From: Snodgrassella alvi
GTDB lineage: Bacteria > Pseudomonadota > Gammaproteobacteria > Burkholderiales > Neisseriaceae
Direction of reading: 5' to 3'
DNA length: 64,000 nt
Assembly (NCBI RefSeq): GCF_040741455.2
Contig: NZ_CP160328.2
Location: forward strand, 1,488,001 to 1,552,000
Position numbers and translations under genes: made by a program. Positions 8,023 through 60,892 of this stretch are shown piece after piece (position 1 is the first letter of the stretch; each line of letters begins with the position of its first letter). The notes under the pieces are model-generated. The model ran no database searches. It saw only the letters and a program-made list of their open reading frames with translations, and was not told the origin of the DNA.

Positions 8023-11000
8023 TTAGTTGTTGCTCCACTTGAAGCCAACACCGGCATTAAAGCCAACCTCTTTGCCAGTAGTGGAAACACCTGCACCCCA
8101 GCCGATATTACCGCTATTACTCATTGCCTTGTAGTTGGCGCCTACAGCGGTATAGCCACGATAAGTACCTACACCCACACCAACTGCCTGCTCACCGGCA
8201 TTCAGAGAAGGCAGATAAGCACCGGATAAGGCCATGGCCAGAGCAGTACCAGAATAAGCACGACGCTCAGTACGCTGAACACGCTCATTTACTTGGTTCA
8301 CATACTTATTGATGTTCGTAATCTGATTATTAACACCTTTAAGTTGAGCCACATTCACAGCATCAGTGTCAGCAGTACCAGCTGCAACACCAGTTATCTG
8401 ACGGTATACACCCTTAGATGCATCACCCACAGATACCGCTCCTTCCGTACTTCTTGTGGCACGGATTGCTGCTGCCTGCTGCGATGTTGCAGTTACTGGA
8501 ATATATCCCACTTTACCAGCAGCTGTGCTTGCTACTGATCCGGAGCCCAGAGCCACACCACCGGACTGTTTCACCTGAGCATTGCTGCCCAAAGCCACAC
8601 CATTGGCAGCAGGAGCACTAGCTGAATCACCAATCGCTATCGCTGAAGAACCACTAGCCATTGCTGCGCCACCCACTGCTATTGAATCAGCACCTTGAGC
8701 AATTGATGCAGCTTTAGCAGAGTTGATCTTCGCATACTTGGTGCCATAATTCTGAATATTTTGCAGTGCATCAGCGACATTATTTGCTGTTACATTGCCA
8801 CCAGTAGGCGTAGACGTATCGTATTTAGGCGGATTGATAGCATTCGAACCCGGTGTGTAAGATGTACCCAGACCTGATGCTATGGAAGCAATCTGGCTGC
8901 CGACAACTTGACTGATCGCGGTAGACAGACTATTCAATTGTGCGTCTGAAACCGTACCTGTTGGCAAACTATGTACCAATGTACTCAGATTATCCAAGTC
9001 TGTTTTCACATCCCACAACTGACCAGCATTAACTGCATCTAAAGAACCACGTGCAAGATTACCGGCTGCCACATTGGTAATACGCTGAGCTGTACCGCTG
9101 CCATGACTGGCATCATAAGCTCCCAACGTACCATTCCACTGCAAGGCATTCTTCGTCAGGTTAGTAATATTAGTGATCATTTCGCCTGTCGGAGTATCTT
9201 GCAAAATACTGGTGATTGTAGATAATCCGGTCGAAGTAGATGTTGATAAACTTGTCAGTCTTGATCTTTCGGTATACAGCTGGCCGCCATTTACAGCATC
9301 ATGTGAATCTTGGTCAACTAAACCATCAGCCACATTGATAATCTTGCCATATTTTCCATCAAAATCTCGAGTAAGTTTATTTGGTCTTCCAGCATCAAAC
9401 CCGTTTTTATCATCACTCCATTGCAGGCTCTTATCCTTCAGCTCTTTCACATCTTTTTGAGTATTGCCAAAGCTGGTAGACAGGCTGCTCAGGCTGGTGC
9501 TCGTGTTTGTAGCCAGCCTATCCAGACTGTCACTGGCAGTACTCAAACTACGTGACAAACTCTCATATCCGGTAGACATAGAGTTGCTGATGCTGTTGAT
9601 ACCTGAAATTACAGTTGATGAAACTACTGTTGACAGACTATTCAGACCTGTGGAAGTAGAACCAGACAATGCATACAGCTGGCTACCGTTTACCGCATCG
9701 GTAGAATCCGCTGCCACGCGGCCTGCAGCTACATTGGTAATACGCTGAGCTGTACCACTACCATGACTGGCATCATAAGCACCCAGTGTGCTATTCCACT
9801 GCAAGGCATTTTGCTGCAGGGTGGTCAGGTTCTGATTTGTGCTACTCAGACTGGATGTCAGGCTAGTCAGACCGGTTGAAGTACTGCTGCTCAGGCTGGT
9901 TAAGCCTGTGCTGGCACTAGCCAGTCCTAATTGAGTGGTGCTGGTCAGCGTATCCACTTTGTTATTAACATTAGTCAAACCTGCTGATGTGGCACTGCTC
10001 AAGCTGCTCAGTCCCGTACTACTGCTGTTCAATCCTGCCTGCGTCAAAGTAGACAGGCTGTACATCTGAGCACCGTTAATGGCATCACTAGAGCCGGCAC
10101 TGATATTTCCGTCAGCAATACCGGTCAGATTCTGCGCACGACCGCCACGAGTGGCATCATAAGCGTTCACTGCATTGTTCCATTGCAGTGCATCCTTTTG
10201 CAGATTACCTACATTGGTATTGGTATCACTCAAACCAGTTGACAGACTGCTTACACTCTTAATTACTGTACTGAGGCTATCAGTAACGATGGTAGACAGA
10301 CTACCCAACTGATTTTTGGTTACCTCATTCAGGTTAGTAGACAGGCTGCTTAGTCCGGTTGAAGTAGAACCAGACAAACTAAACAACTGGCTACCGTTAA
10401 TTGCATCAGTAGAATCCAAGGCTACCCGGCCGGCCGCTACATTAGTAATACGTTGAGCTGTACCACCGCCATGACTAGCATCGTAAGCTGTTAGCGAACT
10501 ATTCCACTGTAAGGCATTTTGCTGCAGGGTAGTCAGGTTCTGATTTGTGCTACTCAGACTGGATGTCAGACTAGTCAGACCGGTTGAAGTACTGCTGCTC
10601 AGGCTGGTTAAGCCTGTGCTGGCACTAGCCAGTCCTAATTGAGTGGTGCTGGTCAGCGTATCTACTCGTTCATTGACAGTAGACAAACCTGCCGATGTAA
10701 CACTACTTAAGCTGCTCAGCCCCGTACTGCTACTGCTCAGTCCTGCCTGTGTCAGAGTAGACAAGCTGTACATCTGGGCGCCATTGATGGCATCACTTGA
10801 AACAGCGCTAATATCTCCACCAGCAATACCGGTCAATTTCTGAGCATGGCCATTACGGGTTGCATCAAAAGCACCGCTCACACTATTCCACTGTAATGCA
10901 TTTTGCTGCAAGGCTGCTACATTAGTATTGGTTTCTCTCAGACCTGTAGACAGGCTGCTTACATTTTCCGTTACCGTACTGAGACTATTAGTCACTATAG

Positions 11001-11850
11001 TAGACAGACTACCCAGCTGATTTTTGGTTACCTCATTCAGATTAGTAGACAAGCTGCTTAGCCCAGTTGAGGTGGAGTTAGATAATGTATACAGCTGGCT
11101 TCCATTTACTGCATCGGTAGAGTCTGCAGCAAGACGTCCGGCGCTAATATTGGTAATGCGCTGTGCAGAACCGTCACGACCAGCATCATAAGCTGAAAGT
11201 GAACCATTCCATTGCAAGGTATTAGCCTTCAGCGTCGTCAGATTTTGATTGGTGCTGCTTAAGCTAGCAGTTAAACCAGCCAAGCCTGTTGCTGTACTGC
11301 TACTCAGCGTGCTCAGATTGCTATTGGTACTGTTCAAGCCTGCCGCAGTTACCGTAGACAGACTATAGAATTGCCCGCCGTTAATAGCTTCAGTTGAAGC
11401 TGCATTGACTGCACCTGCACCGATGCCACTCAGTACTTTGGCTTCTCCATTTCGACTGGCATCGTACACACCCTTGCCTGCATTCCACAGCAGCGCATTG
11501 GCCTGCAGTGAAGATACACTAGCATTAGCTGCCTGTAATCCTTTATCCAAAATCTGTAGATTGGAAGAAGTCGTACTGGTTAGGCTGCTTAGACTGTTGT
11601 TGATGCCAGTAATGCTGTTTGTCGTTGTATCAGACAACTGATTCAGCGCATCTTTAGTGCTACTCAGGCCTGTTGTAAGTGTACTCAGGCTAGTGCCATA
11701 GGCAGTAGACAGTGTATTTAACGCTACATTAGTAGAGCTCAGACTTTGATTCAACGTATTGACACTGGCTGTTGTACTGGTGGACAAGTTATACATCTGA
11801 GCACCGTTTACAGCATCAGTAGAATTTGCAGCTATGGAACCTGCAGCTAC
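8023..11850 (-). repeat. Left arm of large inverted repeat (3' third of TAA1)
   Basis: The last ~3.8 kb of TAA1 matches the last ~3.8 kb of TAA2 (about 36600-40379) in opposite orientation. Some blocks, such as 11405-11790 here against 36660-37030, differ at only a handful of bases over several hundred, including synonymous sites. Other blocks within the arm are more diverged, so it is a mosaic, as expected from gene conversion. The outer boundary is approximate. Confidence 0.75.
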
Positions 11851-14800
11851 CTGAGTAATATTCTGTGCCTGACCTGTACCATGATCAGCTACGTAAGCAC
11901 CTTTAGTTTTATTCCACTGCAACGCATCTGCCTGCAATGAAGTGACATTACCATTAATCTTACTTAAGCCGGTAGAAAGGCTGCCGATATTATCGGTTAC
12001 CGTACTGAGGCTGTTAATCACAATGGTAGACAAACTACCAAGCTGATTTTTAGTCACTTCATTCAGATTAGTAGACAAACTGCTTAGTCCGGCTGAAGTG
12101 GAGCTAGACAATGTATACAACTGGCCACCGTTTACTGCATCGGTAGAATTCAGAGCTACCAAGCCCGCAGCTACATTAGTAATACGCTGCGCTGTGCCAC
12201 CATGTCCGGCATCATAAGCTGACAGCGAATTGTTCCAAAGTAGGGCATTATCTTGTAGAGCAGAAACTTTGGCTGTCGTGGAGCTAAGATCGGTATCTAG
12301 TTTATTCAGGCTGTTCGTTGTATTAGCAGTGAAAGTATCCAGTTTACTGCTAACAGTGCTAACACTATTACCTAATATAGTAGAAAGACTTGTATAGCGA
12401 TTATCTACCGTTGTTCTGATGCCGGTAGAAAGGTTGTACAACTGAGTACCATTAACTGCATCAGTTGAATCAGGAGCTACGTTGCCGGCAGCTACATTAG
12501 TGATTTTCTGTGGCTTATCTGTACCATGATCTGCACTATAGCTACCATTTTTCCACTGAAGAGCATCCTGCTGTAATCCAGCTACGGTACTAGTAGTTGA
12601 GCTCACAGTGCTGCTCAGGCGTCCTAGTGTAGTGGATGAACTATTGTACAAACTACTCAGACTATTTTGAGTAACAGTAGAAAGATTAGCAATATTGTTT
12701 GAAACACTTGTAGATAAGCCGCTCAGCCCAGTAGAAAAGCTAGAAGACAGAATAGCTACACTGTTTGATGTCGTAGAGGACAAGCTGTTGAAAGCATTCG
12801 ATACCGTAGTAGACAAGCTACTGAAAGTAGTGGAAGTACTAGTAGACAGATTGTTTAGTTTTTCCGGCCAAGACGTAGACAGGCTATCTAATGTCTGTTG
12901 GGCTGAATTCAAACCAGATGATAGTGAGCGAGATACATTTGCCAAGCTGGTAGAATATCCTGAGGAAGCACGATACAGTTGTGCGCCAGTAATCACATCA
13001 CTTGAATCTACTGTTTCAGCACCTTCTGCAACACGGGTAATTTTAGCTGGCTTGCCAGTAGCATGGCTAGCATCATAACCTGTCAGAGCAGAATTATACT
13101 GCAACGCGTTCTGCTGCAGCTGGCTTACTTTGCCACTAATCACCTCGGTAACAGTTGAAAGACTAGATACACCACCGGCTTTGACAATCGTGCTTAAAGA
13201 AGATGAAAAATTGTCAAATCCTGTGCTAACACTGTTTGAAAGGCTAGATATTTTGGTATTGGTTGTAAACAACTGGCCAGCAGTCGCTACATCACTGGAA
13301 TCCTGCGCAAGTGTACCTGCAGCAACATTGGTAATCTTACCTAAAGCACCTGCCGTACCATGACGGGCATCGTAGGCACCACCATTACCTAAACTATCAT
13401 TCCACAGCAATGCGTTCTGCTGCAATGTATTCACATTAGCGTTAGTTAATTTCAAGCTGCTGGAAGCAGTAGTAGATAATTCAGTTAGCCTGTTATTGGT
13501 ATCGTTCAAACCAGTTGAAAGGCTGGCCAGATTATTAGTATTCATCTCAGTTAGAGAAGAAGACAAGCTGCTTAAACCATTTACCACACTGTCTGAGATT
13601 GAGCTTATGCTACCAGACAGTTTGCTAACATTAGTATTGGTTGTAAACAACTGGCCACCAGTAACTACATCACTTGAATCTGCACTTAAAATGCCATCCT
13701 TAACATTAGTAATACGCTGATAGATACCATTATGACTTGCATCATAAGCACCTTGACCACCATTCAGATCCTTATTCCACAATAAGGTATTTTGCTGCAG
13801 CACACCAATATTGGAATTGGTAGTCTGAAGAGAAGTTGAGGTTGAGGTAGTCAGATCATTCAGTTTGATATTGGTTTTATTTAATTCGTCTTTCAAACCA
13901 GCAAGACTATTGTTGCTGATATCCTGAAGCGAACTAGATAATTCACCAAATGTAGTACTAACACTTCCAGACAAAGATGTAAGATTACTATTAGTGGTAA
14001 ACAGCTGACCACCAGTAACCACATCGCTGGAACCAGCTACGGCATTTCCATCCAAAACATTAGTAATCCGCTGAGCCTGTCCATTATGAGTAGCATCATA
14101 GGCTTTCAAATCACCATTCCACAGCAATGCATTTTGCTGCAGAGTTGAAAGGCTGGTATTGGTTGCAGTCAGCTTAGCGTCAAAACTACTAGACAAACTA
14201 CTGATTTTACTATCAGCAAAATTGTTCAAAGCTGTGGATATACTACTGATACCGGTTGAGGCTGATGATGAAATCGAACCAAGAGTATTAAAAGTACTGC
14301 TAGATATATCGCTCAAAGTACTATTAGTAGTATACAACTGGCCACCAGTGACTACGTCACTTGAATTAGCTCCTAAAGAGGCATCGGCCACATTAGTGAT
14401 TTTTTCTGATCCACCTATCGCACCGTGGCTAGCATCATAAGCACTGGCAGTACTATTCCATTGTAAAGCATTCTTCTGTAATGCTGCCACATTAGCACTG
14501 GTAGAAGCCAGATTATTATCCAAAGTTGTAGATAATGATCTTAGTCCAGATTTCAGTGAGTTATCCAGAGTATTAGTCAGATCGATCAAATTATTACTAG
14601 TGGCAGTAGATAATGTATTTAATCCAGTAGACATACTAGTAGACAAGCCACTGACTGCGGTATTGGTAGTATACAACTGGCCACCGGTAACAACATCGCT
14701 GGAGCCTGCTGTGGCACTACCATCAGCTACATTGGTAATTCTCTGTTTTTCATTTGTAGCACCATGACTGGCATCATAAGCATTTACAGTATTATTCCAC

Positions 14801-17800
14801 TGCAATGCATTCTGCTTTAATGAATTTAAATTAGTATTGGTTGTAGTCAGACTGTTTTCAGCAGCAGTAGAGAGAGAAGTCAAACCTGTAGACAGGGATT
14901 TATTCAGATTTGCTGAAATATTATCTAGACCGGTAGAAGCAGAACCAGATAAGCTTTGTAGTCCATTATTCAGTTTGTCAGTCAAACTACTAACACTAGT
15001 ATTGGTTGCAAATAGCTGCTTACCTGTAACCACATCACTTGAATCAGCGCTAAGTATGCCATCTGCTACATTAGTAATTCTCTGTGTGGTATTGGCCAAA
15101 CCATGGCTAGCATCATAAGCACCAATATCATTATTCCATTGCAAAGCATCTTTTTGCAAAGCTGAAATATTTGTATTGGCAGATTGCAGACCAGTACTGA
15201 GAATAGTAGACAGACTTTGTATTCCTTTTGCAGACAAGCCTTCTAATGAAGTAGATAAGCTGTTTAGACTTTCTACCGTAGAGCTAGAAAGCGTATACAA
15301 CTGTCTACCTGTTGCTACATCTGTTGAATTAGCTGCAAGTGTGCCATCCATTACATTGGTAATACGCTGATTTTCGCCACCATTTCTGGCACTGTATGCT
15401 TTATCAGCAACACTCCATTGCAAGGCATTTTTCTGCAGATTAGCAATATCTGCCTGACTATCACCTACTGCAGACGATAAGCTGCTGATTACAGACTTAG
15501 AAGAATTCTGTAATGCAGTATTCAGGCTACTTAAACTATTCGTAGTTGATAAAGACAATGTATCTAGAGTGGTATTAGTTGTGTATAACTGAGCGCCAAT
15601 AACCACTTCACTGGAATCTGCTGTCAGATCGCCGCCTGCTACCCCTGTAATCTTCTGAGCATTACCACTGCGGCTGGCATCATAAGCAGTTTTAGTTGAA
15701 TTCCACAAAAGCGCCTGATCTTTTACAGCAGTTAATTTAGTGCTGGTATCTGCCAGACTGGAATTAACTGTTGAAGTAGTACTCGCTAATTTGCCAGCCG
15801 TAACAGTGGAAAGACTATACAGCTGACCACCGTTAATCGCATCAGTGGAAGCCTGATCAGTACTACCTGCTTTAACATGAGTGATCTTCTGATCCACATC
15901 ACCATGTCTAGCATCATACGCACCTTCTTTCCACAGCAATGCATTACTCTGCAGCCCAGTAACACTATTACTAATAGTACCAGCTACCAGAGAAACTTTA
16001 TTAATATCTGCAGTGGTTGAAGAAATTATCTGATCTGAAAGCTGAGACAATCCAGTTGAAACACTACCGGATAAAACTGTCAGATTTGAATTAGTCGTAT
16101 ATAGCTGAGCACCATTGACAGCATCAGTAGAAGCGACAGATGTAATATCACCCGCGGCAACCTGAGTAATTTTTTGAGGGCTGCTGCCACGCAGGGCACT
16201 AAATGCTTTTAAGTTATCATCCCATTGTAAAGCATCAGATTTCAGATTTTTAATACCTGTAGAAGTAGAACTCTGCACGCTTGATAAGCTAGTGCTAACA
16301 TTACCCAGATTAGTGTTGATGTTAGACACTACATTATCCACACGGCTGGATAGTGCAGTAGATAAGGTAGTAATATTAGTATCAATACTGGTTGATAAAG
16401 AAGACAAATCAGCGTTTGCAGACTGTAGGTCTGAACTTGTTGTTGATGCTAAAGTACTGATACTTTTATTAGTGGTAAATAATTGTCCGCCAGTAACCAA
16501 ATCTGATGATGTAGCCTTGCTGATGTCACCAGCAGCAACGTTAGTTACCTTACGATTTGAACCTCCATAGCTGGCATCATAAACATCACCATTAAGCTGC
16601 AAAGCCACATCACTAAGATGGCCAATACTGTTTCCAGTAGCCACAGACAATGAAGAAATAGTCTTATTAGTGGTATCCAGTACTGTACCCACAGATGTAG
16701 ATAATGAGTCTCTTTTAGTATTTGCGTCCTGAATACTTTGGCTGGTTGAAGTAGACAACCGGCTGAGACTAGAATTAGTTGTAAACAACTGCCCACCGTT
16801 AACTACATCTGTAGATGTAGCTTTAGAAATATCGCCGGCTGCAATATTGGTAATTTTTTGTGCTTCACCATTACGGCTGGCATCATACATACCGTTTTTC
16901 AATTGCAGTGCATCAATATTCAGCTGGCTCAGACTAGTGGACGTACTGGTTACAAGAGTATTCAACTGATTTACAGAAGACGACAGCGTTGTGCTAACAG
17001 AAACTGAAGTTGAATTAAAATTGGCTACTGCACTACTGATGCTGCCCAATGAAGATGTGCTTAATGAAGCTAACTCTGTATTAGTAGCGTATAATTGTCC
17101 ACCGTTCACAGCATCTGTCGAACCCGGTGCAGTAATATCACCAGCACTAACATTAATGATTCTTGCTGTTTTTGCTCCACTGGCTGCATGAGATGCATCA
17201 TAAGCCAATTCTTTTGTATTCCATTGCAACGCATCTTCCTGAAGGTGCTTAATTCCCGTAGATGCTGAAGTATTCAAGGAAGTGATATCAGAATTTGCTT
17301 GATTAAAACGAGTGGTAATACTGTTTGTCAGATCAGTTAGATTACTTGTAGTTGTACTTATTGATGTAGAAGCAGATGCCAGAAAATCAGTTAAATTACT
17401 GTTTGTAGTTGACAATCCGGTTGATGTAGACGAAGAAAGTGAACTCAGACTGGTTGATGTGGACGTGCCCAGACTTTTAAGCTGAGCTACATTCACTGCA
17501 TCTGTATCTTGTGTACCAGCAGCAAGTCCAGTAATCTGTCGAGTCAAGCCCGAAGCAACGTCCCCAATTGCTACAGCATTTGCTGTACTGTTCCATACAG
17601 GTGAAGCTGTTGCAGCATCACGGGAGACACTTGTTGATGGATTATACCCAGCCACACCTTTTGAAGTAGAAGCGACAGAACCACTACCTAAAGCAATACT
17701 ATCATCAGATTTGGCAGAAGCACCCTGACCAATTGCTACGCCATTGGTACCACTTACCTGAGTATTATTACCCAATGCCAAAGCATTGGCTGCACTTACA

Positions 17801-19086
17801 TTAGCCGTATTACCAACAATCATTGCTCCAGTGGCTTGTGCAGAAACAGTATTACTGCTACCCAGAATTCTTATGTTATCAGCTTTACTAATTCCTTCTG
17901 GATCAGTCTGGATAGTATTTTTATTACCAAAAATACCAGTATTATCAGCGGCAATCGTACCGTTCTGATTACCAAAAGAATAAGTTCCTTCACCGTTGAC
18001 TATAGTTACACCGGTTGCAGCAGTAGTCTGGGTACCATCTGTACTGTTAAAGCCTGTAGTAGTACCGGAACCACCAATAGCTCCGGAACCTTTACCATTC
18101 ACCTGATTAGCTGAACCAATACTGATACTCTGCTCCGCATTTGCCTGAGCTGAATTACCGATGGCAAGAGCAGAATCTTTTTTGGCCTGAGACTGTACAC
18201 CTAAAGCCACCGTACCATCTGCGCTGGCTTGAGACATCAAACCAGCAGCCACACTACCCACGCCATCAGACGAAGCCACAGAGCCTAAAGCCACACTAGA
18301 TACACCAGTAGCCTGAGCGCCAATACCGAAGGCAACTGCCGCGCGTCCAGAGGCAAGAGCCGCTGTACCGATAGCCATTGCACCACCAGCTGTTGCCGTA
18401 GCATTGGTACCAAAAGCTACAGAATAATTACCTGATGCATAGGCACCACAACCAGAAACAAAAGAATATACACCATATGCTACAGGCATTTTACTTTTAG
18501 CACCGCCTGTTAATAATCCCTGCATACCGGAGGTGCCTGTAGTTGTAATACCGTCTGTGCTAGCATCTACAGAAGTGGTAGTTGTACCATAAGGAGTATA
18601 CTTGGTACCTACCCCATTATTTTGAAAAGTCTGATTCTGGGCAAACCGCAGGTATTCATCTAGAGCACTGATACTTGTGCCTGAAATAGTGCGGTTTGGA
18701 TCTCCTCTTCCTACAACTTCATCTGCACCACATGTATAAGGATAGGCAGCACTACCTGTAGCGTTAAGGTCATTAGCTCCATTAATTACCATAGAACCAT
18801 GACTGCCGTATGGATAGCTTTGGGGTGCACCGTCAGTACCTCTATTAGTTCCACCAACAATTGCTGCATTAGAAGCATACGCACTTGGAACAAATATTGA
18901 TAAATTTAAAACCGCAGTAATAACACCCAGTTTGGAAAGGATATTCAGTTTAGATTTACTGCCGCCTTTGTTGGCAGCAGGTAATAAGGAAACTGTATCA
19001 GACTTGGTTTTGCTTTTAGCTAGTTCGGAAGCAGCTACCCAAGTCTGGGTCGTTTCATTCCATATAGCACGATATATTTTATTCAA
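8023..19086 (-). CDS. Giant YadA-like trimeric autotransporter adhesin TAA1
   Basis: This is a type Vc secreted surface adhesin of 3687 aa. In order: an extended signal peptide region (YRAIWNETTQTWVAASELAK, 5-24), a hydrophobic signal segment (about 53-71, cleavage after SAYA), a unique N-terminal segment, and a YadA-type left-handed beta-roll head (about 200-510) built of SVALG/AIGxxAxA repeats. A neck (ITGLAAGTQDTDAVNVAQLK, 518-537) follows. The stalk of about 2900 aa is made of some 25 modules, each a Ser/Thr/Leu-rich segment plus an LQxNALQWN...ITNVAAG...STDAVNGGQLY neck-like block. A second short head (about 3460-3510), a last neck (about 3560-3582) and a ~85-aa YadA membrane anchor close it. 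I see only two cysteines, C119 and C213. It ends FKWSNN, three residues beyond the usual terminal aromatic. The start is a TTG with an AGGAG ribosome site, conserved in TAA2. The head suggests host or cell adhesion; the ligand is unknown. Confidence 0.95.
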   Translation of the reverse strand: MNKIYRAIWNETTQTWVAASELAKSKTKSDTVSLLPAANKGGSKSKLNILSKLGVITAVLNLSIFVPSAYASNAAIVGGTNRGTDGAPQSYPYGSHGSMVINGANDLNATGSAAYPYTCGADEVVGRGDPNRTISGTSISALDEYLRFAQNQTFQNNGVGTKYTPYGTTTTSVDASTDGITTTGTSGMQGLLTGGAKSKMPVAYGVYSFVSGCGAYASGNYSVAFGTNATATAGGAMAIGTAALASGRAAVAFGIGAQATGVSSVALGSVASSDGVGSVAAGLMSQASADGTVALGVQSQAKKDSALAIGNSAQANAEQSISIGSANQVNGKGSGAIGGSGTTTGFNSTDGTQTTAATGVTIVNGEGTYSFGNQNGTIAADNTGIFGNKNTIQTDPEGISKADNIRILGSSNTVSAQATGAMIVGNTANVSAANALALGNNTQVSGTNGVAIGQGASAKSDDSIALGSGSVASTSKGVAGYNPSTSVSRDAATASPVWNSTANAVAIGDVASGLTRQITGLAAGTQDTDAVNVAQLKSLGTSTSTSLSSLSSSTSTGLSTTNSNLTDFLASASTSISTTTSNLTDLTNSITTRFNQANSDITSLNTSASTGIKHLQEDALQWNTKELAYDASHAASGAKTARIINVSAGDITAPGSTDAVNGGQLYATNTELASLSTSSLGSISSAVANFNSTSVSVSTTLSSSVNQLNTLVTSTSTSLSQLNIDALQLKNGMYDASRNGEAQKITNIAAGDISKATSTDVVNGGQLFTTNSSLSRLSTSTSQSIQDANTKRDSLSTSVGTVLDTTNKTISSLSVATGNSIGHLSDVALQLNGDVYDASYGGSNRKVTNVAAGDISKATSSDLVTGGQLFTTNKSISTLASTTSSDLQSANADLSSLSTSIDTNITTLSTALSSRVDNVVSNINTNLGNVSTSLSSVQSSTSTGIKNLKSDALQWDDNLKAFSALRGSSPQKITQVAAGDITSVASTDAVNGAQLYTTNSNLTVLSGSVSTGLSQLSDQIISSTTADINKVSLVAGTISNSVTGLQSNALLWKEGAYDARHGDVDQKITHVKAGSTDQASTDAINGGQLYSLSTVTAGKLASTTSTVNSSLADTSTKLTAVKDQALLWNSTKTAYDASRSGNAQKITGVAGGDLTADSSEVVIGAQLYTTNTTLDTLSLSTTNSLSSLNTALQNSSKSVISSLSSAVGDSQADIANLQKNALQWSVADKAYSARNGGENQRITNVMDGTLAANSTDVATGRQLYTLSSSTVESLNSLSTSLEGLSAKGIQSLSTILSTGLQSANTNISALQKDALQWNNDIGAYDASHGLANTTQRITNVADGILSADSSDVVTGKQLFATNTSVSSLTDKLNNGLQSLSGSASTGLDNISANLNKSLSTGLTSLSTAAENSLTTTNTNLNSLKQNALQWNNTVNAYDASHGATNEKQRITNVADGSATAGSSDVVTGGQLYTTNTAVSGLSTSMSTGLNTLSTATSNNLIDLTNTLDNSLKSGLRSLSTTLDNNLASTSANVAALQKNALQWNSTASAYDASHGAIGGSEKITNVADASLGANSSDVVTGGQLYTTNSTLSDISSSTFNTLGSISSSASTGISSISTALNNFADSKISSLSSSFDAKLTATNTSLSTLQQNALLWNGDLKAYDATHNGQAQRITNVLDGNAVAGSSDVVTGGQLFTTNSNLTSLSGSVSTTFGELSSSLQDISNNSLAGLKDELNKTNIKLNDLTTSTSTSLQTTNSNIGVLQQNTLLWNKDLNGGQGAYDASHNGIYQRITNVKDGILSADSSDVVTGGQLFTTNTNVSKLSGSISSISDSVVNGLSSLSSSLTEMNTNNLASLSTGLNDTNNRLTELSTTASSSLKLTNANVNTLQQNALLWNDSLGNGGAYDARHGTAGALGKITNVAAGTLAQDSSDVATAGQLFTTNTKISSLSNSVSTGFDNFSSSLSTIVKAGGVSSLSTVTEVISGKVSQLQQNALQYNSALTGYDASHATGKPAKITRVAEGAETVDSSDVITGAQLYRASSGYSTSLANVSRSLSSGLNSAQQTLDSLSTSWPEKLNNLSTSTSTTFSSLSTTVSNAFNSLSSTTSNSVAILSSSFSTGLSGLSTSVSNNIANLSTVTQNSLSSLYNSSSTTLGRLSSTVSSTTSTVAGLQQDALQWKNGSYSADHGTDKPQKITNVAAGNVAPDSTDAVNGTQLYNLSTGIRTTVDNRYTSLSTILGNSVSTVSSKLDTFTANTTNSLNKLDTDLSSTTAKVSALQDNALLWNNSLSAYDAGHGGTAQRITNVAAGLVALNSTDAVNGGQLYTLSSSTSAGLSSLSTNLNEVTKNQLGSLSTIVINSLSTVTDNIGSLSTGLSKINGNVTSLQADALQWNKTKGAYVADHGTGQAQNITQVAAGSIAANSTDAVNGAQMYNLSTSTTASVNTLNQSLSSTNVALNTLSTAYGTSLSTLTTGLSSTKDALNQLSDTTTNSITGINNSLSSLTSTTSSNLQILDKGLQAANASVSSLQANALLWNAGKGVYDASRNGEAKVLSGIGAGAVNAASTEAINGGQFYSLSTVTAAGLNSTNSNLSTLSSSTATGLAGLTASLSSTNQNLTTLKANTLQWNGSLSAYDAGRDGSAQRITNISAGRLAADSTDAVNGSQLYTLSNSTSTGLSSLSTNLNEVTKNQLGSLSTIVTNSLSTVTENVSSLSTGLRETNTNVAALQQNALQWNSVSGAFDATRNGHAQKLTGIAGGDISAVSSDAINGAQMYSLSTLTQAGLSSSSTGLSSLSSVTSAGLSTVNERVDTLTSTTQLGLASASTGLTSLSSSTSTGLTSLTSSLSSTNQNLTTLQQNALQWNSSLTAYDASHGGGTAQRITNVAAGRVALDSTDAINGSQLFSLSGSTSTGLSSLSTNLNEVTKNQLGSLSTIVTDSLSTVIKSVSSLSTGLSDTNTNVGNLQKDALQWNNAVNAYDATRGGRAQNLTGIADGNISAGSSDAINGAQMYSLSTLTQAGLNSSSTGLSSLSSATSAGLTNVNNKVDTLTSTTQLGLASASTGLTSLSSSTSTGLTSLTSSLSSTNQNLTTLQQNALQWNSTLGAYDASHGSGTAQRITNVAAGRVAADSTDAVNGSQLYALSGSTSTGLNSLSTVVSSTVISGINSISNSMSTGYESLSRSLSTASDSLDRLATNTSTSLSSLSTSFGNTQKDVKELKDKSLQWSDDKNGFDAGRPNKLTRDFDGKYGKIINVADGLVDQDSHDAVNGGQLYTERSRLTSLSTSTSTGLSTITSILQDTPTGEMITNITNLTKNALQWNGTLGAYDASHGSGTAQRITNVAAGNLARGSLDAVNAGQLWDVKTDLDNLSTLVHSLPTGTVSDAQLNSLSTAISQVVGSQIASIASGLGTSYTPGSNAINPPKYDTSTPTGGNVTANNVADALQNIQNYGTKYAKINSAKAASIAQGADSIAVGGAAMASGSSAIAIGDSASAPAANGVALGSNAQVKQSGGVALGSGSVASTAAGKVGYIPVTATSQQAAAIRATRSTEGAVSVGDASKGVYRQITGVAAGTADTDAVNVAQLKGVNNQITNINKYVNQVNERVQRTERRAYSGTALAMALSGAYLPSLNAGEQAVGVGVGTYRGYTAVGANYKAMSNSGNIGWGAGVSTTGKEVGFNAGVGFKWSNN
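9791..11206 (-). repeat. Two-copy tandem repeat, ~708-bp period, inside TAA1
   Basis: Two adjacent units of about 708 bp (about 236 aa, two stalk modules each) are closely similar. The stretch from the LTSTTQLGLASASTGLTSLS block to LTTLQQNALQWN is almost identical in both DNA copies (about 9791-9960 and 10499-10668). Such arrays change copy number by slippage or unequal recombination, which would alter fibre length. TAA2 carries the equivalent pair. Confidence 0.8.
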
Positions 19087-19904: not shown

Positions 19905-20264
19905 TCAATGTTCCATTTCTTTTTCAACATCTATTAAAGCGCGACGTGACAAAGCCAAAGTAGCACGATTACTATCCAGTACAGAATATAAAAACAGGCT
20001 ACCTAATTTTTTTAGCGGTCGGATAAGATGATATTGATGTCCGACAGTAATAAGAATATCCTCAATTTCATCGTTCAATTCCAGCATCTGCATGGTTTTG
20101 ATTTTAGAGCGGATAACTTCTGTACTGCTGGCTGCGGCAATTTCCAAATCTATTTTATTGATGGCACTGCCAGCCATCAGCATACCATTATCATAATCAA
20201 CCACTGCAGCTGCTAGTGCACCTTCTACGTTTAACAATTGTGCTACCACAGCCTGATAGTTCAT
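19905..20264 (-). CDS. Roadblock/LC7-like small protein
   Basis: A 119-aa protein that resembles the roadblock/LC7 fold. It has an alpha-beta pattern with an N-terminal helix, then GALAAAVVDYDNGMLMAG, a middle helix rich in Lys and Met, and a strand containing EDILITVGHQYHLIRPL. In bacteria such proteins often serve as small-GTPase partners or scaffold-like sensors; no specific role can be assigned here. I chose the ATG at 20264, which has AGGATAAGAG in front, over a TTG five codons upstream. It follows lpxC on the same strand after about 110 bases and may be co-transcribed. Family assignment is by pattern only. Confidence 0.65.
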   Translation of the reverse strand: MNYQAVVAQLLNVEGALAAAVVDYDNGMLMAGSAINKIDLEIAAASSTEVIRSKIKTMQMLELNDEIEDILITVGHQYHLIRPLKKLGSLFLYSVLDSNRATLALSRRALIDVEKEMEH

Positions 20265-20373
20265 TCTCTTATCCTGCAAAAATTAGAAATTAGGCCAAAT
20301 TATATCAGTTATTGTATTCAAATTTTCTTACCCATTGCAACATATTCTTTAGCTGATTTTAAATTCAGTAGTT

Positions 20374-21291
20374 TCATGCTACCTGAGGTAAGTGATGAAA
20401 TGCCGAAGGCAGTAGCCGATTATGTGGAAAAGTTACCCATTCATATGCTTCTGGCTGATTAAGTAGTTGCCGTAAAAGTGCATTATTAATAGCATGCCCA
20501 GATTTATAGCCCTCAAAAGCTCCGATAATTGGATGGCCCAGTACATACAAGTCACCAATTGCATCCAGAATCTTATGGCGTACAAATTCATCTGGATAAC
20601 GCAAGCCTTCAGGATTAAGAATATCCATATCGTCAATCACTATCGCATTGTTTAAATTTCCTCCCAATCCCAGATTGTGACTACGCATCAGTTCTACTTC
20701 CTGCATAAATCCGAAAGTTCGTGCCCGCGAAATTTCATCGATATAAGATTGCCCCGAAAAATCAATCTTAAAAGTCTGATTACTGCGGTTAAACACTGGA
20801 TGATCAAAATCTATGGTCAAAGTTACCTGAAATCCTTCATATGGAGTAAATTTCACCCATTTATCCTTTTCTACAAGTGTTACCGTCTCTTTAATACGTA
20901 AAAAGCGCTTTTCTACAGGCTGATCAACTACGCCTGCATCCTGTAATAAATAAATAAAAGGTAAACTAGACCCATCCATAATGGGAATTTCCGGTGCGTT
21001 CAACTCTACCAGAATATTATCAATTCCATAGGCAGCAAATGCGGACATGATATGCTCAATGGTACCAATACGAATGCCATCTTCTGTCACAACAGTCGAA
21101 GAAAGGCGGGTATCGTTAATCAGTTCTGGTGTCAGTTGCACAATACGGCCTTGTTCACCGGTCAAATCTATCCGCCGAAAACGTATCCCTGTATTAAAAG
21201 CAGCCGGATGTAATCCGAGTCTGACGCGCTCTCCCGAATGCAAACCCACACCAGTTACACTAATGCTTTTCGCTAATGTCCGTTGCAACAT
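20374..21291 (-). CDS. lpxC: UDP-3-O-acyl-N-acetylglucosamine deacetylase LpxC
   Basis: This zinc amidase catalyses the committed step of lipid A synthesis in the cytosol. The 305-aa length is typical. Expected zinc ligands are visible as H80 (GTIEHIMSA), H239 and D243 (FVRHKILDAIGD), and the general acid H266 lies in YKSGHAINN. The start ATG at 21291 has AGGAAAAAAT before it. The gene points away from the DnaA-box cluster immediately upstream. In many Proteobacteria lpxC ends the division gene cluster; here it is separated from ftsZ and neighbours, none of which are in the window. Confidence 0.97.
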   Translation of the reverse strand: MLQRTLAKSISVTGVGLHSGERVRLGLHPAAFNTGIRFRRIDLTGEQGRIVQLTPELINDTRLSSTVVTEDGIRIGTIEHIMSAFAAYGIDNILVELNAPEIPIMDGSSLPFIYLLQDAGVVDQPVEKRFLRIKETVTLVEKDKWVKFTPYEGFQVTLTIDFDHPVFNRSNQTFKIDFSGQSYIDEISRARTFGFMQEVELMRSHNLGLGGNLNNAIVIDDMDILNPEGLRYPDEFVRHKILDAIGDLYVLGHPIIGAFEGYKSGHAINNALLRQLLNQPEAYEWVTFPHNRLLPSAFHHLPQVA

Positions 21292-21363
21292 ATTTTTTCC
21301 TGACTAATCTGCATACCTTATGGTAACGAAATTTTCTTATGGCAGTAATGAATTCTGCCAAAC

Positions 21364-21590
21364 AGTGGATAAATTATTGCTATCAAGGTTCATTCCAATT
21401 AGTTTTCCACAGCAAACAAAAATTTCGCAAAGATTATCCACATAATCCACAAAATATTCCCAAATCAAGATTTTAACTTATCAACAATTAAACATATGAT
21501 AAATATAGATATTTTAAGTTATCCACAGAATGTATGGCTTCGTCTTTGTCTTCATCATTTTATTATTTATATTTTTATTAGAATAATAAA
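21364..21590. other. Candidate chromosomal replication origin: DnaA-box cluster
   Basis: Six 9-mers matching TTATNCACA lie in about 165 bp. Two are perfect (21434-21442 and 21519-21527). Four have one mismatch: 21364-21372 (reverse strand), 21403-21411, 21443-21451 and 21478-21486. An A+T block (about 21530-21600) adjoins the last box and could serve as the unwinding element. Genes run outward on both sides and a perfect parS lies 3.3 kb to the right. dnaA itself is not in the window. The cluster could alternatively be a DnaA-controlled promoter region of lpxC, but the number of boxes favours an origin. Confidence 0.6.
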
Positions 21591-22313
21591 TTAAGTTTCT
21601 ACGTGCTCACGTATTCCTGTTATTTCTACAATATTATCGATTACTCTGAAAAGCACATCCCAATCAAAAAGATTCACTACAAAAATCTTATTAGATTTAT
21701 ATTGATGAGCTGGTCTTGGATCATGAGCCAAACTCTGATTAATTAAATCATAATGTTTTGTATCTAAAGAAAATAATCTTACTTGTTGTAAAGCTTCTGG
21801 TGACCAGTACACTCTCAGCTGTTCATGTTCACGAGCAAAACCACAACGTGCATGAGGCTTCGCCTCAACAAAAGGAATATAAGGTTTGATATCAATAACT
21901 GGTGTCTGATCTAAAAAATCCACACCACTGATGTGTATACGAACATGTTTATTACATTCGATTCGTTCCAGTTTCACCAATGATAAACCTAGATGATTTG
22001 GTCGATGTGGGCTACGAGTCGCAAAAATCCCTTTTTTTTCTTTGCCTCCCAATTTAGGTGGACGAATTAATGGCTGCCAACCTTCTTTTACGGTGGCATG
22101 AAAAATAAACTGTACCCAGATATATTCATAATCTTCTAATCCGCGTACACAATCAGTTGTGAATTCTTTGGATAAGTCTATATATGCCAAAGCAGCTGGA
22201 ACAAGACCAGGCTGCCTGGCTACACCAAATTTCTGTTTATAGGGAGAAGTAATATATCCAATTGGCTGGATTGACCAATATCCTTTGGATACTTCAGAAG
22301 AATGAGAAATCAT
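21591..22313 (-). CDS. trmO: tRNA N6-threonylcarbamoyladenosine37 methyltransferase TrmO (TsaA/YaeB family)
   Basis: A SAM-dependent enzyme of the TsaA/UPF0066 family that methylates t6A37 in a subset of tRNAs. The protein shows the family's opening IGYITSPYKQKFGVARQPG, the central motif ATRSPHRPNHLGLS, and DIKPYIPFVE further on, ending with the C-terminal region that follows the beta-barrel. I place the start at the ATG at 22313 (240 aa); an in-frame GTG at 22334 would add seven residues, and neither has a strong ribosome site. It is minus strand, pointing away from the noncoding 22.3-23.1 kb region. Confidence 0.9.
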   Translation of the reverse strand: MISHSSEVSKGYWSIQPIGYITSPYKQKFGVARQPGLVPAALAYIDLSKEFTTDCVRGLEDYEYIWVQFIFHATVKEGWQPLIRPPKLGGKEKKGIFATRSPHRPNHLGLSLVKLERIECNKHVRIHISGVDFLDQTPVIDIKPYIPFVEAKPHARCGFAREHEQLRVYWSPEALQQVRLFSLDTKHYDLINQSLAHDPRPAHQYKSNKIFVVNLFDWDVLFRVIDNIVEITGIREHVET

Positions 22314-22334
22314 ACTAAATACATATTTATTCAC

Positions 22335-23126
22335 TTGAGCATATTGTACGGGAATCAGTGTATATATCTGTATATAAGTTGTGGATATTGATATAATAAA
22401 TTGTTTTATTTATATATTTTTGTAATAAATAGAAAATAGCTAGCCTGTTTCCGATGTACATAGCCAATTCAAATTATTTGAATAAAATGTTATGCTATAA
22501 GTCTGAAGTTTTCCAATATAACTTAAACAAATTCAATGTAATATAGATAATTTATTATCTATGCTGACTGATGGATTCTTAGCTAAATTCAGTTCTGATT
22601 AATAAAATAAAAAGTATCAGCCTTCTAAAATCAAAGCTTTGATTTTGGGAAATAAGGATAATGATTGAATACTATATGTTGATAAATAAAAAGAGTAGGG
22701 TAGAGGTTGAATACTAAATTTATATTAGAAAATTATTTCCCAAATTATGATTTTGTTTGTGGATGTAGGTAACAAACTTGGACATAAAAATTTTCTATTA
22801 TTTAATGTTAAACGATGCCACTTTATTTGTGATTAAAAGGGAAATTTTTTAAAGTAATAAACACTCAAAATTTAATAAAATCTCAGAAATAAAATTCTAT
22901 TAAATTCTATTAGATTCTGTTCATTGCCAGACAAACAGGTAGTTAATAGTGGTTTATCGGCAGTGTGTTTATATTTCTGATACCATGTCGAGTTATTAGG
23001 AAAGAAGATAGCAGTATAATTATTTAATTTGACTGATTTATCCATTTTAAGATGGTTATTCTGTAATCAGAATGCTGGTAACACCTAAGATTGTTGCTGG
23101 TTTTGATTAATCTAGGGATAGTTCTG
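22335..23126. other. Divergent AT-rich intergenic region between trmO and etfB
   Basis: About 790 bases with no gene that I can support. This is where gene direction changes from all minus to all plus. One 9-mer at 22380-22388 matches a DnaA box with one mismatch on the reverse strand. It presumably holds promoters for trmO and etfB, and it could belong to the origin region with the box cluster at 21.36-21.53 kb. No clear hairpin or RNA gene is seen. Confidence 0.45.
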
Positions 23127-23876
23127 ATGAAAATATTGGTAGCAATAAAGCGTGTTGTTGACTATAACGTAAAGGTACGCGTTAAAGCTGATGAATCAGA
23201 TGTGGATATTGGCAATGTTAAAATGTCAATGAATCCTTTTGATGAAATTGCTGTTGAAGAAGCAGTGCGTTTAAAAGAAGCAGGAAAAGCCTCTGAAGTA
23301 GTGGCGGTATCAATTGGGGTAAAGCAATGTGAAGAAACCTTGCGAACAGCTTTAGCAATGGGCGTTGATCGTGCCATACATATTGAAACCGATGAAAAAC
23401 TTCAGCCACTTGCAGTGGCCAAGTTGTTAAAAGCTGTAGCAGACAAAGAACAGCCGCAATTGTTTTTGCTGGGAAAACAGGCAATAGATGATGATGCCAA
23501 CCAGACGGCACAAATGCTATCAGCTTTAATGCAGGTTTCTCAGGGTACGTTTGCCAGTAAAATTGAATTAAATTCTGATGAAGTATTGGTAACGCGTGAA
23601 ATTGATGGTGGGCAGGAAGAAGTGGCACTTACATTGCCAGCCGTAATTAGCGTTGATTTGCGCCTGAATGAACCTCGCTATATTAAATTACCTAACATTA
23701 TGCAGGCTAAAAAGAAACCGCTGGAGAAAAAAACGGTAGTCGAACTAGGTGTGGATATTTCTTCGCGGCTGATTCAGCTGAAAGTAACCGAACCGCCAGA
23801 GCGTAAGGCGGGTATTAAAGTAGCTGATGTAAGTGAATTAGTTGATAAACTGCATCATGAAGCTAAGGTTATTTAA
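23127..23876 (+). CDS. etfB: Electron transfer flavoprotein beta subunit
   Basis: This subunit of the ETF heterodimer carries electrons from acyl-CoA and related dehydrogenases to ETF-quinone oxidoreductase. From the ATG at 23127 it is 249 aa, the standard size, starting [19 protein letters not shown]. The beta-ETF signature region is visible as [25 protein letters not shown] nine bases upstream supports this start over a TTG 36 bases earlier. etfA follows after 11 bases, so the two form an operon. Confidence 0.96.
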
Positions 23877-24853: not shown

Positions 24854-24869
24854 TGTTTCACGTGAAACA
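24854..24869. other. parS: parS centromere-like site (perfect)
   Basis: The 16-bp palindrome TGTTTCACGTGAAACA matches the bacterial parS consensus at every position. ParB binds such sites and loads SMC to segregate newly copied origins; parS sites usually cluster near oriC. It lies between the etfA stop and the etfBA terminator, 3.3 kb from the DnaA-box cluster. parA and parB are not in the window. Confidence 0.9.
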
Positions 24870-29225: not shown

Positions 29226-29348
29226 TACATTTATACAAACATTTATGTTATATTACTTAATAATTTAACTTAATTTTAACCTTTCTTTAAGTTATCAAGA
29301 TATTTTTGATAAACGCATGATTTTAAAAAATTAGGAGTAAACCAATTG
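29226..29348 (+). promoter_or_regulatory. Promoter and leader of TAA2
   Basis: A -10-like TATATT (29249-29254) lies 17 bp after TACATT (29226-29231), with a leader of about 85 nt. The block around the -10 (ACATTTATGTTATATTACTT) and the ribosome site AGGAGTAAACCAATTG match the TAA1 upstream region. The translation start is TTG at 29346. Confidence 0.5.
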
Positions 29349-32300
29349 AATAAAATATATCGTGCGATATGGAACGAATCCACTCAAACTTGGGTGGCTG
29401 CTTCTGAGCTAGCTAAAAGCAAAACCAAAGCGAATACAGTTTCCTGTCAGATGCCTGTTGTATCTACAGTACTAAGTAAGTTTGGTTCTAAAGTATTTAA
29501 AATCGGATTAATTGCTTCAATCGTGAATATGACTTTAGGGATGCCTATTGCATATGCTGCTGGTCGTGCAGCAATAATAGGTGGAGATCCGGGTCGAGGT
29601 TCTGATAATAGAACAGGTAGTTACCTTAACACATCAAGCATCAATGCAGTTCAGATAATGGGAGATAATAGTGATTTTTGTGGTTATGATAGGGTTGCAG
29701 GACGAGATATAAACGGTGCTCAGCGTAATCAAGGCCCCTCAGGGCTTCCTGCTATTTCAGCAATGGAAGAATATTTGCGGTTTGCTCAAAATTATACAGT
29801 AACCGGTACCAGAGGAGCTGTTAATGGTAGAACCCTCAATCCATATGGTACAACTAACCATGTTGAAAATTGGGGTGGCCAAGGATGGACAACTGACCCC
29901 ACTAATGGTTCAAATGGGTTGCCTTACAATCCTCCCAAACCTCCTATATCAGGTTATATGGATCAATATGCTACAGGGGGATATCAAAATGGTTTAGGGA
30001 GTGCCTTTGGTGTAAATTCATTTGTTATGGGATGTGGTTCCTATGCTTCTGGTAATCATTCATTATCATTCGGGACTGGTGCGTTTAATACTGGCGGCGG
30101 GGCACAGGCTGTAGGTAATTTTGCTTTGGCTGGTGGACGAGCTTCCAATGCGATTGGTATCTCATCGCAAGCTACTGGAGTTTCTAGCGTAGCTTTAGGT
30201 TCCGTTGCTAATTCAGATGGCGTAGGAAGTGTGGCACTTGGTTTGATGTCACAGGCTTCTATAGATGGAGCAGTTGCTGTTGGGGTGAAATCTCAGGCAA
30301 GTGGCGACTCTTCAGTGGCCATCGGTAATGACACTATTGCTACTGGTAAACAAGGTATTAGCATTGGTAATGGTAATGTGGTTTATGGAGAACAATCCAT
30401 TGCCATAGGTGGCTCTACCACACCTACTGCATACAAAAAAGATGATGGAACGGAAGCATCTGGTCCGGATGGCTATACCTTTATTAATGCAAACAATACT
30501 TTATCTTTGGGTAATAGTAATAAAAGTACAAGCCCAAATAACGATATTACTGCAGCCAATACGGCTATATTTGGTAACCAAAACACCATTATCAATGCTA
30601 TTTATGATGTTCATGTAATTGGTAGTGGCAATACAGTTGGTAGCACTGATAGCAGCGGTATTGGAGCAACCATAATCGGTAACAATGCTTCTGTTACCAC
30701 AGATAATGGCTTGGCACTCGGTAACAATACTATTGTGAATGGTACTGGCGCCATTGCTGTAGGTACAAATGCCAAAGCTATGGCAGATGGTTCCGTAGCT
30801 TTGGGATCGGATTCAATAGCTAATACAGCTGGTAATGTTTCTGGCTATAATCCAGATACCAATGTGGCTGCTACTGATCCTTCCCTTAGTACGTCCACAT
30901 GGAAAAGCACTACCGGGGCGGTAGCAGTAGGTAACTCTGCTAAGAATATTACCCGTCAAATTACGGATTTGGCTGCTGGTACGCTGGATACTGATGCTGT
31001 CAATGTGGCGCAGCTAAAGAGTTTGTATTCATCTATCTCTGGCAGTGCATCCAGTCTTTCAACAGCGATAGATGCCAATGTATCTGTGGTAAAAACTAAG
31101 ATTAATAGTGCTTCTATTTCAACATCTGATGTTATAACTAATCTTAATCAAAATATTACAAAGGCTTCTGGCGATGCTGATGATAAATTAGCACAAATAA
31201 ATACCGATATTTCTTCTTTAAGTACCTCTACATCTAGCTCTATTGGTGCATTACAAACCAGTGCTTTGGTATTTAAAAATGGTGTTTATAATGTCGGTTC
31301 GGACGATGGCAGAGAAACTAAAAAAATAACAAATCTGACAGATGCTCGTCTTACTGACGACTCCACTGATATGGTTAATGGTGGCCAGTTATTCAGTACC
31401 AATTCTTCGCTGAGTTCTATCTCTACTGCTATTTATACTAATATCAGTAACCTTAACGAAGGTACTTCTAATTTAGTATCTGTCGTTAATACATCGGTAT
31501 CAACAATTGATAGCAATATTAATAGCTTTACTACAACTACTGATAAAGGTATAAAAGATTTACGTGCAGCCATACTCAAATGGAATGGTTCGGATGCATT
31601 TGATGCGGGTAATGAAAAGAAAATAACGAATGTAGAAGCAGGTAGTATTGACAGCGCAGATTCTACTGATGCTGTAACGGGTGCACAGCTGCGTGCCACC
31701 AATATGAAGCTTAATAAGCTGGATAGTGATATTCAGGATAGCCTTACAGACAACAATCTTAAAATTGATAAATTTGTAACCGATACAAATATAGCGTTAT
31801 CAAGTTCGAATAAGTCATTAGATGGTCTGTCTACTTCAATTTCGACTGGATTAAGCCAGATTACACGGAATGCTCTTTTATATGATGCCACTACAGGGGC
31901 ATTTGTTGAAGATAAAAACAAGACGCCGCAAAAAATCTCAAATGCTGCAGAAGGTGATGTTATTGCGGATTCTGATGATGCAATTACAGGTGGCCAGTTA
32001 TACACTGTAAACTCCAATCTAGCGAGTCTTTCTGTATCTGCTTCCACTGGCTGGCTCAATATAAGTGGTAAACGCAGCAGCTTGACAACAGACACTGCCA
32101 ATAGTCTTACTAATCTTTCAACTGCAATAACAAATAACTTAAACAGTTTAACAACTTCGGCTAATTCTAGTCTGAGCACATTAAGTAATTATTTACAAAT
32201 ATTGTCAGATTCTGCATCTACTGCTATCAGCGGTTTGCAGGAAAGTACCATATTGCGTGGTGAAGACGGCTATTTTCATGCCACTCATGATGGTACAGCG

Positions 32301-35300
32301 CAAAAAATCACCGGTGTTGCACCTGGTGATATAAGCAGTCCTAATTCAACAGATATGGTTAATGGTGGCCAGTTATTCAGTACCAATACTGCAATCACTA
32401 ATTTATCTAGTACTGTAAATACGCAATTTGGTAGTTTGTCTGTTTCGGCTTCTCTGTCAGTCGGCCAGAGTCTTGATAAGTTGTCTACGAGCCTGGCTAC
32501 AACTGGCAGTAAAGTTGCTGCATTGCAAGAAGATGCTTTGCAATGGAACGATGATGACGCAGCATATAGTGCCAGTCATGGTGATGCAGATACAAAAATT
32601 ACACATGTCAGTGCAGGTGACATTACCAGTGCAACTTCAACTGATGCAGTTGTCGGCAGCCAGTATTATGATTTGAATACTTCAATAGATGCACGAGTAA
32701 GTACGCTGACCACATCAGCTTTAAGTACTGTGGGAGAAATTAATAGCAGTATTTCCTCTTTGCAACAACAAATGCTCCAGTATACAGATGGTAAATATAA
32801 TGCTAAAAGAGTAGAAAAAGAGCAGAAAATTACAGGTGTTGCTGATGCTGCTTTAAATAGTGCTTCAACCGATGCTATTAATGCTAAGCAGTTATATACT
32901 ACCAATTCAACCTTGGATACAGTTTCAACCACTATTTCCAGCGGTTTATCCACCTTGGCTGGTAATATAAATCAGACAGCAGTAAATACTCTGCAAAGTG
33001 GCATGGTTCTGGTTAATGGACTGAATTCAAGTATCAGTACTTTGAAGAATAATGCTCTGCTGTGGAATGAAACTGATAAGGCATTTAGTGCTACTCATGA
33101 TATTGACGGTAATACTAAAATTACTAATGTGGCCAATGGTTATGTAGCAGCTGGTTCTACAGATGCAATCAATGCCGGCCAGATTTTTTCGTTTTCTACA
33201 TCTGCTTCCACAGGAATACAATCTTTAAGCACTGGATTGAATGGGTTATCAGTACAAAAAATCAAAGAATTATCTAGTTCTATTCAGGCCGGTGTCACTG
33301 GAACTAATAATAAAATTGCAACGTTAAAGCAGAATGTTCTGCTCTGGAATGCTGATGCATATGATGCTAGCCATGGCAGCAGTAGAGGTAAAATTACACA
33401 TGTAGCTGATGGCAATTTGCAATCTAATTCAACTGATGCTGTAACCATGGGGCAGTTATACACCACCAGCACTAGTATCAGTACATTGAATACTGATGTG
33501 GTGACAAAACCAGCTGAGTTATCCTCAAAATTAGATGTTGCTATGGCTGCTACTAATACCAGTCTGAATAATACTATTTCAGGTAGTATCAGCAGCCTGT
33601 CAGATAAAATTAATACCGATATTGGCACAGCCAATTCCAATATTAATGCACTAAAACAGACTGTATTGCAATGGAATGGTAGTTCTTATGATGCCAGCCA
33701 TGGCCAAGTTGGCGGTAAAAATAAAATTATTAACGCTGCACAAGGCAATGTGAATGATAAATCATCCGATGCGGTAATTGGTGACCAGTTGTCAATGACA
33801 AATACCAAAATCTCTGGGCTGACTTCAGATTTAACGTCGCAGCTTCAGAGTTTGTCTGGTTCTTTATCTGGAAGTCTGGCTAGTGTTTCAACCACCATGG
33901 ATAGGTCACTTTCTAGTGGTTTGAATACTTTTGCCTCAACCATTGATACCAGTTTGGTTCCTGTAAATGCTAGTCTAAGTACTATTAAACAGAATGCATT
34001 GCAATGGAATGGCAGCGCTTATGATGCCGGTGGTACTCAAGGTATAAAACGAAAGATTATAAATGTGGATAAAGCTGATTTACAGGCTAAGTCCAGTGAT
34101 GCGGTAATTGGTGCTCAGTTGTTTAGCACTAACAGTCAGATTAGTGCATTATCTTCTTCGTTTGATAACAAAGTATCGGATTTTACAAGTGCAACTTCTA
34201 GTAGTCTAAATAGTCTATCTACAGCATTAGAGAATTCTTCTTTTTCTGGACTAGAAAGCCTTTCTACTACAACAGAGCAACGCCTTCAAGGAATTAACGG
34301 CAAACTCCCTGCCCTTCTGCAGAATGCATTGCAATGGAAAAATGGAGCATATGATGCCAGTCATGGTGTAGTAAATGGTAAAAACCGGATCACCAATGCT
34401 GCAGATGGATCTTTAGTTAAGGGCTCAAAAGATGCGATTACAGGTAATCAGCTGTATAACACCAATTCTGCCATCAATGATCTGGCTAATGAGGTCAAAA
34501 GTGGCATTGGAAATTTATCCAGTGCTCTGAGTACCATATCTGATAAAAATATCTCTACTTTAACTGGGTTGCTTGCTCAGACAAATACCAAAGTTAGTAG
34601 TCTTTCTACAGCAGCAGGAACACAATTAGGTGTGATTAATAATGGTGTATCTGATTTGCAGAAAGACGCTTTACAATGGAAGCGTTTAGATGATTCAGGT
34701 GCAGGAGCATATGATGCCAGCCATGGCATTGCAAATGCTAAAAATACACTGACACATGTATTTTCAGGTAATGTGAAAGAGGGATCGTCTGATGCGATAA
34801 TCGGTGCACAGCTATATAGTACAAACAACAGTATTTCTGTTTTAAACAATAAATTAGCCGATGTATCGGGCAGTATGCAAGCCGGTATCAGTAGTTTATC
34901 AACTTCTTTGGATCAGGTAACCGGTTCTAATTTGGCCAAACTGACTCAAAGCAGAAGTACTATTGAAAACAATATAACTAGCCTGTCTTCAAGTATTTCT
35001 TCAGCTTTAAGTACGGCCGACGGAAGTTTGGGTACTCTCAAAACGAATGCCTTGCAGTGGAAAGACGGAGCCTACGATGCAAGTCGTAATGATAAAAATA
35101 GCCGTATAACCAATGTTGCTAAAGCTGATATTTATGATGGTTCAACAGATGCCATCACTGCAGGACAGCTGTATAGTACCGAAAATAGTTTTGACACTTT
35201 GAACAGTGATATTAATAAGCGTTTTGAAAGTTTTTCAACGACTTTAAGCAGCCTTGTTGATATTGGTATAAGCAGTCTGTCAGCAGGTATAACGGGTATT

Positions 35301-60786: not shown

Positions 60787-60892
60787 TTATCCACAACTAT
60801 ACCCTTTCCGCTCAAATCTCATAGCTCAACGGTTGTTCAGCTTATTGCGGATAAATTAAAAACTAGCTCAGAATTAAGAATTTTGTGGATAA
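60787..60892. other. Minor DnaA-box group
   Basis: Two perfect TTATCCACA boxes in opposite orientation (60787-60795, and 60884-60892 on the reverse strand) plus one single-mismatch box (60846-60854, reverse). The last perfect box overlaps the 3' end of the VOC gene. It may titrate DnaA or be chance in AT-rich DNA; it lacks the density of the 21.4-kb cluster. Confidence 0.4.

Follow-up and report, generated by a model that had tools for sequence, protein, structure and literature searches.

In many bacteria, the general rule is that the chromosomal replication origin lies beside dnaA. The oriC of Escherichia coli is detached from this gene and consists of an array of TTATCCACA boxes, with an AT-rich unwinding element 3′ of an R1-like box. 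In Pseudomonas, the origin is located between dnaA and rpmH, and open DNA was mapped 18–46 bp downstream of box R1 (PMC5109545). Here we analyzed a stretch of 64,000 nucleotides of the Snodgrassella alvi genome (hereafter the window, corresponding to C1:1488001-1552000, where C1 is the single contig of 2,291,622 bases that forms this genome), in which a sequence-only reading had pointed to a candidate oriC of the detached type between lpxC and trmO. The GC-skew minimum, the parS and dif sites and conservation in relatives all support this proposal, and we conclude with high confidence that the lpxC–trmO region is very probably the origin of this chromosome, an oriC of the ordinary DnaA-box type, detached from dnaA. 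As in E. coli oriC, a TTATCCACA array, an AT-rich element 3′ of an R1-like box and separation from dnaA are present, while the flanks are lpxC and trmO rather than gidA and mioC, GATC and a conserved IHF site are lacking, and parS is nearby. The locus shares with the Pseudomonas origin its polarity and a similar distance, the AT block beginning 27 bp 3′ of the R1-like box, but is linked to neither dnaA nor rpmH. In the part of the open literature that could be searched, we found no paper on Snodgrassella and oriC, and, with the same partial coverage, no description of the lpxC link or of the box-spacing signature across Neisseriaceae. The features of the locus, in window coordinates, are as follows.

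20374–21291, minus strand: lpxC (TIGR00325), which stays linked to the cluster across the family (synteny)
21292–21590, no strand: proposed oriC, whole unit, equal to the lpxC–trmO intergenic region (GC-skew minimum, box cluster, kept in relatives)
21364–21372, minus strand: DnaA box TTATCCACT, 1 mismatch; aligned near-box in most Snodgrassella
21403–21411, plus strand: DnaA box TTTTCCACA, 1 mismatch; starts the conserved 31-bp pair
21434–21442, plus strand: DnaA box TTATCCACA, perfect; pairs with the box at 21403 at the conserved 31-bp spacing
21443–21451, plus strand: DnaA box TAATCCACA, 1 mismatch; directly abuts the box at 21434
21478–21486, plus strand: weak DnaA box TTATCAACA, 1 mismatch; only partially conserved
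21519–21527, plus strand: DnaA box TTATCCACA, perfect, R1-like; adjacent to the AT block and 85 bp on from the box at 21434
21554–21598, no strand: candidate DNA unwinding element, 93% AT; starts 27 bp past the end of the R1-like box and overlaps the trmO stop codon
21591–22334, minus strand: trmO (TIGR00104), right-hand neighbour, transcribed toward the cluster
24854–24869, no strand: parS TGTTTCACGTGAAACA (consensus search)
46491–46506, no strand: second parS-like site TGTTTCACGTGAAACT (consensus search)

The six DnaA boxes initially described, two perfect and four with one mismatch, are all in place within a span of 164 bp (21364–21527), and the spacings of 31, 9, 35 and 41 bp given for the direct boxes are exact. 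Against these six boxes, 5000 shuffles of the 299-bp intergenic sequence that preserved its dinucleotides gave a mean of 0.165 and a maximum of 2 (≤1 mismatch); not one of the 5000 reached six, showing that the cluster is beyond chance. Moreover, when 810 kb of the same genome were scanned in 250-bp stretches, the cluster upstream of lpxC scored highest, the runner-up stretches holding four boxes. The motif TTWTNCACA is itself enriched genome-wide, with 336 copies versus 159 for the reversed control pattern in the whole genome.

The adjacent A+T block that had been reported also stood up to analysis, as few 45-mers in the window are richer in A+T; in the alignment of relatives, a TCATC-TTTTATTATT block is conserved at this element. 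By eye, DnaA-trio repeats in the AT block were indistinguishable from plain AT-richness, and we discarded them. Control features of the E. coli type (Dam/SeqA and IHF) were likewise rejected, given that there are no GATC sites at the proposed oriC and that the single IHF consensus match, at 21463, is absent from that place in ten relatives and thus does not represent a conserved site.

Genes had been described as running outward on both sides of the cluster, which holds for lpxC on the left, whereas trmO, also on the minus strand, points toward the cluster; on the right side, outward-pointing genes start at 23091. An adjoining trmO is found in Snodgrassella and a few others, and not in most Neisseria loci. 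In beta- and gammaproteobacteria, the gene dciA, a helicase operator, has been reported to lie between lpxC and secA (PMC5109545). Here, the ORF at 19905–20279 beside lpxC has no Pfam match, leaving its assignment as dciA unsupported. Farther out, two giant YadA-like trimeric autotransporter adhesins of 3687 and 3677 aa (8023–19086, minus strand, and 29346–40379, plus strand), 56% identical as proteins, face outward on either side of the origin, and their DNA forms an inverted repeat of ~4.5 kb with 81% identity (8035–12540 versus 35904–40376) that could mediate inversion across the origin. Type I restriction-modification genes (window 2410–7022; hsdS 2410–3780, hsdR 3777–7022), with matches below curated cut-offs, lie ~14 kb from the origin.

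We then placed the cluster on the chromosome. Genome-wide cumulative GC skew, sampled as 10 kb per 38 kb, is lowest at the samples flanking the cluster: it drops from ~380 kb to ~1.49 Mb, with some interruptions, and climbs from ~1.515 Mb onward. In a contiguous 190-kb profile, GC skew reaches its local low at window position 22154, no more than about 0.6 kb from the cluster, with positions 20273–23606 within 100 units of this minimum, and keto skew is lowest at 22229. A skew minimum elsewhere in the genome had been named beforehand as an outcome that would refute the proposal; the proposal withstood this check. Two parS-like sites only were found genome-wide (≤2 mismatches to the searched consensus), 3.3 and 25 kb from the cluster, the nearer one (24854–24869) bearing out the earlier mention of a close parS. 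A dif-like site with 1 mismatch to the searched XerCD core, at C1:265,453, is nearly opposite the cluster, defining arms of 1,048 and 1,244 kb (46/54%). Counting against the origin reading, the sampled skew maximum (about 342–380 kb) is ~100 kb away from dif. As the sequence-only reading had supposed, dnaA is not adjacent, being at C1:1,201,601, 308 kb off; parB is at C1:1,306,165, 203 kb from the cluster, and no box cluster was found in the 20 kb around each of these two genes. Around dnaA, GC skew is zero or positive in the samples from C1:1,140,000–1,226,000 and strongly negative on either side, as if this segment had been inverted or inserted; one sample of the segment has a TA skew of +0.31.

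Based on this arrangement and on how DnaA works in general, we propose a model in which DnaA would bind the boxes between 21364 and 21527, and the resulting complex, with the R1-like box (21519) as its anchor, would engage the AT block at 21554–21598. Melting of this block would then allow helicase loading, and forks would depart in both directions, to meet near dif at C1:265,453, while ParB on the two parS sites (24854 and 46491) would segregate the new origins.

The locus is kept in close relatives. LpxC matches the protein of Snodgrassella alvi wkB298 at 100% identity and those of other Snodgrassella at 81–90%, which places the genome in this genus of Neisseriaceae, and the intergenic region was matched by DNA similarity in 10 of the 12 other genomes of the genus (73–79% identity), with near-invariant alignment columns at the equivalents of the boxes at 21403, 21434 and 21519. 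The single-contig relative G006 (2,527,978 bases) has the same intergenic region with six boxes in the same order and at near-identical spacing (74, 113, 144, 153, 188 and 230 from lpxC), without any difference of substance from our genome. Its base 1 falls inside the region upstream of lpxC, the lpxC match stopping 30 bases before the last base and the six-box cluster being at 44–208, which suggests that the depositors probably had already chosen this region as origin.

Across the family Neisseriaceae, the pair of boxes 31 bp apart is found in Snodgrassella, ESL0693, Stenoxybacter, G015 and one Neisseria MAG, with a third box 85–89 bp farther on. This 31 + 85–89 bp pattern is present in 13 of 83 family genomes, from four genera, exactly once each, while the reversed-pattern control gave no match; our own genome escaped the pattern solely on account of its first box, which reads TTTTCCACA. 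In most Neisseria loci, the boxes are fewer or spaced differently, yet still directly upstream of lpxC, and no cluster was found upstream of lpxC in the loci of other Betaproteobacteria. The chromosome-scale marks follow lpxC as well: in G006, G014, G015 (where the skew is weak) and G017, the skew has a local minimum no more than about 2 kb from the 5′ end of lpxC, a perfect parS is 3–9 kb from lpxC in these four genomes and G013, and in G006, G013, G014 and G017 dif is reached after 45–52% of the circle, counted from lpxC. In G017, 377 kb separate dnaA from this locus, and the skew arm in which dnaA lies is still negative. G013 fits less well, with one perfect box upstream of lpxC and a skew minimum 17 kb away. 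It thus appears that the spot upstream of lpxC serves as the origin for most of the family. In G025, an outgroup within the order, some 60 kb separate parS from dnaA and 510 kb separate it from lpxC, and this greater proximity to dnaA is only suggestive of a derived state of the lpxC-linked origin in Neisseriaceae, a polarity limited by G022, where parS is near neither gene. That the Neisseriaceae ancestor shifted its origin from dnaA to the lpxC promoter region, and that bound DnaA would also tune lpxC and in this way tie lipid A synthesis to the initiation of replication, is a speculation that we regard as rather unlikely.

The position of the boxes directly upstream of the lpxC start, and the fact that the cluster follows lpxC, not trmO, across the family, would also suit a DnaA-regulated promoter or titration site for lpxC (or trmO), with the true origin elsewhere nearby. 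We hold this to be very improbable, as the skew minimum, parS and dif all indicate the spot of the cluster, and no stronger cluster is found nearby; origin and promoter or titration roles could however coexist. Weaker box clusters elsewhere in the genome count against the oriC reading, and two of them, one between purB and a glyoxalase-like gene (window 60787–60954) and one at C1:1484742–1484949, each contain four boxes, two of them perfect. Despite this, it is exceedingly improbable that either is the origin, since they are about 39 kb and 25 kb, respectively, from the skew minimum, score lower and are partly inside genes. Finally, an origin adjoining dnaA, for which the case comes from the established rule in other bacteria only, is scarcely credible in this genome, where dnaA is 308 kb from the skew minimum, lacks a box cluster in its surrounding 20 kb, and would divide the chromosome at dif into arms of 59/41%. 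The dnaA neighbourhood was thus rejected on both skew and the absent cluster, and the dnaA neighbourhoods of G006, G013, G014 and G017 have no box cluster either.

An oriC between lpxC and trmO would locate the replication origin of a bee-gut symbiont, and predicts that a whole family, Neisseria included, has its origin upstream of lpxC, where a searchable box-spacing signature marks it. In this family, some genome records begin at dnaA (e.g., G014 and G015), so that position-dependent analyses which equate base 1 with the origin would there carry an error of about 180–590 kb; read-depth growth rates, gene dosage and replichore strand bias would be affected.

Smaller DnaA-box clusters were observed in our genome at window 60787–60954, C1:1484742–1484949, C1:1477444–1477572 and C1:1182742–1182846, several of which contain a pair of perfect boxes spaced by 12 bp, inside intergenic regions or at their edge (e.g., TTATCCACAGAATTATCCACAG); these are possible DnaA titration or reactivation sites. 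In three loci of other Neisseriaceae (L085, L087 and L173), the box array occurs twice, at about 165–281 and 473–592 from the lpxC start codon, with nearly the same 62/54-bp spacing, which suggests a duplicated or bipartite origin in some members of the family.
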